NCBI GenBank assembly: GCA_003242735.1
Contig: QGVH01000011.1
Coordinates: 37,583-101,582, forward strand
Length of the DNA stretch: 64,000 nucleotides
DNA from: a bacterium
GTDB lineage: Bacteria; Gemmatimonadota; Gemmatimonadetes; Longimicrobiales; RSA9
Reading direction: 5' to 3'
Shown here: positions 36,162 to 37,268 of the stretch, piece after piece
Layout: each line of letters opens with the position of its first letter
Position numbering within the stretch: the first letter of the stretch is position 1
Made by a program: the position numbers and the translations under genes
The notes under the pieces: model-generated
Seen by the model: only the letters and a program-made list of their open reading frames with translations
Told to the model about the DNA's origin: nothing
The model's database searches: none

Positions 36162-37268
36162 ATGACGAGACGGCGCCTCTTGGCAGTGGCCGTGGCGGCG
36201 GTGATCCTGCTGGGCCTCGGACTCATGGTCCTGGTGGGCACGCCGGAAGCCGCCGAGCCCGACCTCCATGCGCCGCTGCCCGTGGATCCCAACGCCCTGG
36301 ACCTCCGGTGGGACCGGGAGCGGGGCGAGCTGGTGATCGCCTACGGGCCGATCGACTTGCCCGCCGGGGCATCACACGAGGACATCGTCCAGATCGGCGG
36401 AGTGGTCGGCACGCTGCCGGCGGACGGCTGGCTCCACGGCTACCGGGTCGAGATCACGGACGCGCACGGCAGGCGCGTCCCGCAGCTCGTCCTGCACCAC
36501 ATCAACATCATCGCGACGGACCGGCGGGAGCTGTTCAGCGAGATCATGCAGCGCGTGGGCGCGGCGGGCCACGAAACCGGACCCGTGAAGCTGCCGCGGC
36601 TGTTCGGCCTGCCGGTGCGCCAGGGCGAGCGGCTGCTGGTCACGGCGATGATGCACAATCCGACGTCCGAGTCGTACGAGGGCGTACGGGTGGTGACGCG
36701 GATGCCGTTCACGCCGCGCGGGACGTGGCTGCCGCCGATCCCGGTGTTCCCGTTCTACCTCGACGTGATGCCGCCCGCGAGCAAGCACGCCTACGACCTG
36801 CCGCCCGGCCGGTCGGAGAAGAGCTGGGAGGGAAGGCCCGCCGTGTCCGGCCGGATCATCGGCGTGGGCGGGCACCTGCACAAGTACGGCGTGGCGTTGC
36901 GTTTCGAGGACGTGACGGCAGGCAAGGTCCTGTGGGAGGCCGCCCCGATCCTGGACGAGGACGGCAACGTCATCGGCATGCCGATGCGCATGTTCCTCGG
37001 ACGGCTCGGCATCCCGCTCCGCAAGGACCACGTCTACCGCCTCACCGCGGTGTACGACAACCCGACCGGTGAGACGATCCCCGACGGCGCCATGGGCACC
37101 CTCGGCGGCGTCATGATCCCGGCCCGCAACGAGACCTGGCCCGGCGTGGACCGCCGGCACCCGGACTATCTGCTGGATTGGGAACTGATCCAGGACACGT
37201 CGTACGGACACGCGGGACGCGGGGAAGGCAGCGCCACGGCGGGCGGGCACGGACATCACCACCACTGA
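36162..37268 (+). CDS. Putative PHM-like type II copper monooxygenase domain protein
   Basis: The ATG at 36162 follows CAGGGGAAC and opens a signal anchor (LLAVAVAAVILLGLGLMVLVG), so the 368-residue protein is exported or periplasm-facing. Potential copper ligands fall in the order and spacing of peptidylglycine hydroxylating monooxygenase: HH at 112-113, H165 in MMHNP, HLH at 238-240 in GGHLHKYGV, and Met311 in GAMGTLGG. In PHM they are 107/108, 172, 242/244 and 314. It has no Cys and therefore none of the PHM disulfides. The C-terminus is the His-rich GHGHHHH. I infer a mononuclear-copper-pair fold; enzymatic activity is not shown. It follows etfA closely but may be transcribed separately. 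Confidence 0.6.
   Translation: MTRRRLLAVAVAAVILLGLGLMVLVGTPEAAEPDLHAPLPVDPNALDLRWDRERGELVIAYGPIDLPAGASHEDIVQIGGVVGTLPADGWLHGYRVEITDAHGRRVPQLVLHHINIIATDRRELFSEIMQRVGAAGHETGPVKLPRLFGLPVRQGERLLVTAMMHNPTSESYEGVRVVTRMPFTPRGTWLPPIPVFPFYLDVMPPASKHAYDLPPGRSEKSWEGRPAVSGRIIGVGGHLHKYGVALRFEDVTAGKVLWEAAPILDEDGNVIGMPMRMFLGRLGIPLRKDHVYRLTAVYDNPTGETIPDGAMGTLGGVMIPARNETWPGVDRRHPDYLLDWELIQDTSYGHAGRGEGSATAGGHGHHHH

Follow-up and report, generated by a model that had tools for sequence, protein, structure and literature searches.

PHM and DBH are animal copper enzymes that make amidated hormones and noradrenaline. Whether they adopt a closed state with coupled coppers is disputed between PMC4846438 and PMC6123673, and in the available portions of these papers such a state is described only for chain A of DBH and for a copper-depleted PHM mutant. 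The same portions describe conserved disulfides in the DBH core (PMC4846438) and PHM H172A crystals that lack CuH (PMC6123673). No paper on a PHM-like family of the kind analysed here was found among the matches listed from the open-licence PMC literature. The window, a stretch of 64,000 nucleotides from a Gemmatimonadota contig, carries a gene that, in our judgement, probably encodes an exported, cysteine-free protein resembling the PHM/DBH core and likely acting as a copper-dependent oxygenase.

The gene runs uninterrupted through 368 codons to its stop, with AGGGGA just 5' of its ATG. Translation returned every residue that the first-pass annotation had placed, i.e. HH at 112-113, H165, H238-L-H240, M311 and the terminal GHGHHHH, in this order, with the 71-residue gap from HxH to Met and the complete lack of cysteine (0 Cys, 19 His). 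In the predicted model, a hydrophobic N-terminal helix is followed by a folded core and a His-rich end of low confidence. The protein is thus likely exported, and a lipobox-like pattern occurs near the start of 25 of 142 close relatives. At least three His after residue 345 are found in 132 of these 142, while residues 47-340 are free of cysteine in 139/142 close relatives and in 109/128 members of a divergent set.

Table. Features of the gene and its 368-aa product (window coordinates; counts refer to the divergent set of 128)
Feature	Position	Strand	Basis
Gene of the 368-aa PHM-like protein	36162..37268	+	Open frame, stop codon included
Hydrophobic helix at the N-terminus (residues 2-25), probably an anchor or export signal	36165..36236	+	DSSP helix on predicted model
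H112-H113, matching the CuH pair H107, H108 of PHM	36495..36500	+	126 and 127 of 128; HH-HH in profile alignment
M163, in the place of PHM H172 / DBH H333 (third CuH ligand)	36648..36650	+	Fragment end-points, profile register
H165, two residues beyond the third CuH ligand position	36654..36656	+	His in 66/128
H238-L-H240, matching the CuM His pair H242, H244 of PHM	36873..36881	+	127/128 each; pairs with HMH in bacterial PHM domains
M311, matching the CuM Met M314 of PHM	37092..37094	+	126/128; C-terminal offset 3 in 25/25 PHM rows
GHGHHHH tail, predicted disordered	37245..37265	+	pLDDT <50, residues 350-368

Among the candidates scored in a protein search, 784 were relatives of the protein with E no higher than 0.001. 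None of the 120 relatives listed carries a Pfam domain, and those named by organism are assigned to Longimicrobiales, Longimicrobium, Gemmatimonadales or Gemmatimonadetes. Likewise, all seven family loci from a scan of genome contigs are titled Gemmatimonadetes, and a sample of the window's phylum contains a family match in 104 of 298 genomes; in its own genome the 368-aa protein is the only one. Pfam and NCBIfam searches with the single protein and with profiles returned sub-threshold chance matches and no family, and PDB sequence searches gave nothing of use for the protein or its relatives. With E allowed to reach 10, PF01082 and PF03712 still did not match the protein; PF01082 matched none of 38 diverse family members, and the window's genome gave no match to PF01082 or PF03712 (E up to 10) or to PF01292 (E up to 0.001). 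Two database proteins, P0124 (690 aa) and P0125 (674 aa), carry the family sequence twice in tandem. HH and HxH are present in both copies and His at 165 in neither, while the equivalent of M311 is missing from the first copy.

The fold of the core is predicted to be a PHM-type double jelly roll. Structural comparison gave Z 16.9 for PHM/DBH and 8.5 for PNGase F, the rmsd of the model was lower to the closed PHM/DBH forms, and structural alignments with PHM contained 10-12% identical residues. Foldseek TM-scores by query length were 0.37-0.47, and DBH was absent among the 50 Foldseek matches listed. Common ancestry with bacterial PHM domains is nevertheless detectable when profiles are compared. 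A diverse alignment of 38 family members (A5) scored 59.3 against a profile of 18 bacterial PF01082-type domains, with a probability of 93.6% and E 2.1e-7, an E-value that, like all profile-comparison E-values given here, refers to one comparison and not to a database. One hundred column-shuffled profiles averaged 16.5 (sd 2.7, maximum 24.7), the reversed profile scored 18.4, and the best of 26 decoys from unrelated neighbour families reached 20.4. The profile homology and the predicted fold both support the comparison with PHM made in the first-pass annotation. Most of the signal comes from the CuM half (42.9) and little from the CuH half (24.2); in the alignment, HH and HxH each fall on their namesakes in the PHM domains. 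Nine PHM sequences against alignment A1 gave single-comparison E-values of 6e-7 (global) and 1e-4 (local). On the other hand, alignment A3 against A2 reached a single-comparison E of 0.016, and the 18 PHM domains against the A2 core E 0.021, with a local score above all 60 shuffles and a global score below the shuffle mean. Homology becomes firm only with A5; these last, narrower alignments gave just E 0.016-0.021.

Conservation was assessed in 128 genome-derived relatives including the window protein (mean pairwise identity 36%, 294 columns). H112, H113, H238, H240 and M311 occur all together in 126 of them and rank 13, 8, 6, 5 and 9 of the 294 columns, for which a hypergeometric p of ~7e-8 is rough, as columns were treated as exchangeable and the cut-off was set post hoc. 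R122, E138, Y292, Y298 and D201 are kept at 96% or more. By sequence and structural offset, the CuM ligand set of His, His and Met (H238, H240, M311) appears to be retained; the pairing of M311 with PHM M314 stems from the structural offset and not from the profile alignment, which alone puts the canonical CuM Met about six residues beyond M311. The exceptions are instructive: one full-length relative (row L072_-_0_2155, hereafter L072), 36% identical to the window protein, has lost all five presumed ligands but kept His at 165, and L127 has lost H112 and M311, so the five residues tend to be retained or to disappear together, and H165 is no part of this group. L072 resembles a natural ligand-free version of the family. 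Two further histidines were considered as ligands and rejected, since H72 and H209, each present in 141/142 close relatives, are found in only 74/128 and 10/128 of the divergent set.

The ligand set proposed in the first-pass annotation is supported for HH, HxH and Met, which are near-invariant, but probably does not include H165 as the third CuH ligand, a position at which M163 seems to lie. H165 looks conserved among close relatives (His in 135/142), yet its column ranks only 124 of 294 in the divergent set and changes 13 times on the 128-row tree, at least 12 of these changes being forced by well-supported branches; the tree was built by a quick method with the H165 column itself kept in. 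For a fragment model covering residues 45-168, the end-point lies at PHM 177 in 19 of 25 PHM rows, at 178 in two, at 180 in one and at 182 in three, while the end-point at 175 needed to pair H165 with H172 occurs in 0/25; the DBH end-point is 338. If the last five residues are free of gaps, M163 falls at PHM 172/DBH 333 and H165 at 174/335, a register shared by the profile alignment. Moreover, HNP follows two residues after the DBH ligand and likewise after M163 in the family, where 99 of the 128 divergent relatives have Met at 163. H165 is thus probably not the counterpart of PHM H172 and DBH H333, and of the three-His CuH site the His-His pair is kept while the third position is, by this indirect register, a Met. 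His at 92 (36435-36437) occurs in 27 of the 62 relatives lacking H165 vs 3 of the 66 having it. These counts could reflect compensation or shared descent, and H92 was not adopted as a substitute for H165.

The gene lies after etfB and etfA and faces a gene for ETF-ubiquinone oxidoreductase, beyond which are genes reading like moeA and mobA; these names, like groEL/groES-like labels, come from reading translations. A simple gene finder recovered the family gene in 37 of 42 stretches (window included) and in none of the other five. The placement beside etfBA had been read as a possible link, but etfB/etfA, or ETF-ubiquinone oxidoreductase with moeA/mobA-like genes, recur in only two of the 37 (L054 and L043), and etfBA was dropped as a partner. 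Any given neighbour family is seen in six of the 37 at most. Nothing points to an operon, and the description of the gene as stand-alone holds. Of 138 neighbours listed (two per side), 20 were scanned with Pfam; three had no family, none belonged to a copper family, and no electron donor or redox partner was seen among these 20 or as a domain within the protein.

As a copper-dependent oxygenase, which residue conservation and the modelled fold make likely, the protein would hold a CuM-like copper at H238, H240 and M311 that binds O2 and attacks the substrate. H112 and H113, with M163 or H165, would either bind another copper or come up to the CuM-like one on domain closure, the His-rich tail may gather copper, and electrons would be delivered by a reductant or a carrier encoded away from the gene. 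Several observations speak against an oxygenase: the PF01082 and PF03712 models fail to recognise the protein, the narrow alignments gave only weak E-values, the profile signal lies mostly in the CuM half, the Foldseek TM-scores are low, there is no electron donor beside the gene, and the first halves of P0124 and P0125 do without M311. The third CuH ligand is not kept either, and it is the H172A exchange that left PHM crystals without CuH in the available part of PMC6123673. Some of these points suit a carrier, store or scavenger of copper in the cell envelope, whose PHM-like frame and tail would bind the metal and catalyse nothing: the His-rich end is widespread among close relatives, the third CuH ligand is loose, and no redox partner was seen within the protein or among the 20 neighbours scanned. 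Carriers, though, seldom keep a whole five-residue set together with R122, E138, Y292, Y298 and D201, and no copper-handling family was named among the scanned neighbours, which leaves such a role rather unlikely.

How the two halves would share copper can be pictured in different ways. In a classical two-site monooxygenase in its open form, with H165 as third CuH ligand and coppers ~11 A apart, H165 should neither vary as it does nor fall out of register with M163 at the ligand position, and the model should not lie nearer to the closed forms; we regard this arrangement as improbable. A PHM fold working in the closed form, in which His-His of one domain meets HxH/Met of the other at a single shared copper or at two closely coupled coppers, is a tentative possibility. 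If true, it would account for the joint retention or loss of the five residues and for the drift at the third CuH ligand, and nature would offer in this family a permanent, disulfide-free form of the closed state. The protein shares its predicted fold class, the double jelly roll, with PNGase F and viral double jelly-roll proteins, and it might itself be of the PNGase F or capsid-like kind, its conserved His and Met having structural or other uses unrelated to copper. This last reading seems very improbable given the drop in Z from PHM/DBH to PNGase F, the matched histidine pairs in the profile alignment and the joint loss of the five residues in L072.

Returning to the oxygenase reading, the substrate is not expected to be a peptide extended by glycine, because the mappable peptide-binding residues of PHM are not kept: G236 stands at what we take to be the position of R240, and T161 replaces Q170. 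The latter belongs to the peptide network described in the available part of PMC6123673. The protein differs from PHM (PF01082/PF03712) in the absence of cysteine, in Met at the H172 position and in being unmatched by the Pfam models, and from the human DBH catalytic core (4zel) in lacking DOMON and dimerisation domains as well as the conserved core disulfides. Plant SURNod19 is only a lead, the relation being unproven: PF07712 did not match the window protein, gave a single hit at E 0.13 among 40 close relatives and none among 38 diverse members, and was found in 0/200 genomes, where controls likewise had no match. Bean Nod19 is copper-regulated via miR398 according to the available part of PMC3882225, and the weak match to one relative hints that plant Nod19 proteins are possibly PHM-like copper proteins too. 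Nearer relatives exist in the same phylum sample, where bacterial PF01082-type proteins were matched in 11 of 200 other Gemmatimonadota genomes at E 0.01, one of them above the curated cut-off. Those at loci L032-L040 share profile homology with the family but, unlike the 368-aa protein, have canonical QMHY and EEMC motifs and Cys. A cytochrome c-like CxxCH precedes the HMH/PHM domain in 9 of the 11 PF01082-type loci, including L032-L040, and these proteins may be PHM-like enzymes that bring along an electron carrier. The 368-aa protein is not filed as a PHM/DBH member, because it fails the Pfam models and lacks the three-His CuH site and the disulfides. By homology and predicted fold it stands beside PHM and DBH and would add to this group a bacterial family missed by the Pfam and NCBIfam models in these searches, and as a small, cysteine-free bacterial relative with only the interdomain ligands fixed it would be a simple protein in which to test the closed state.
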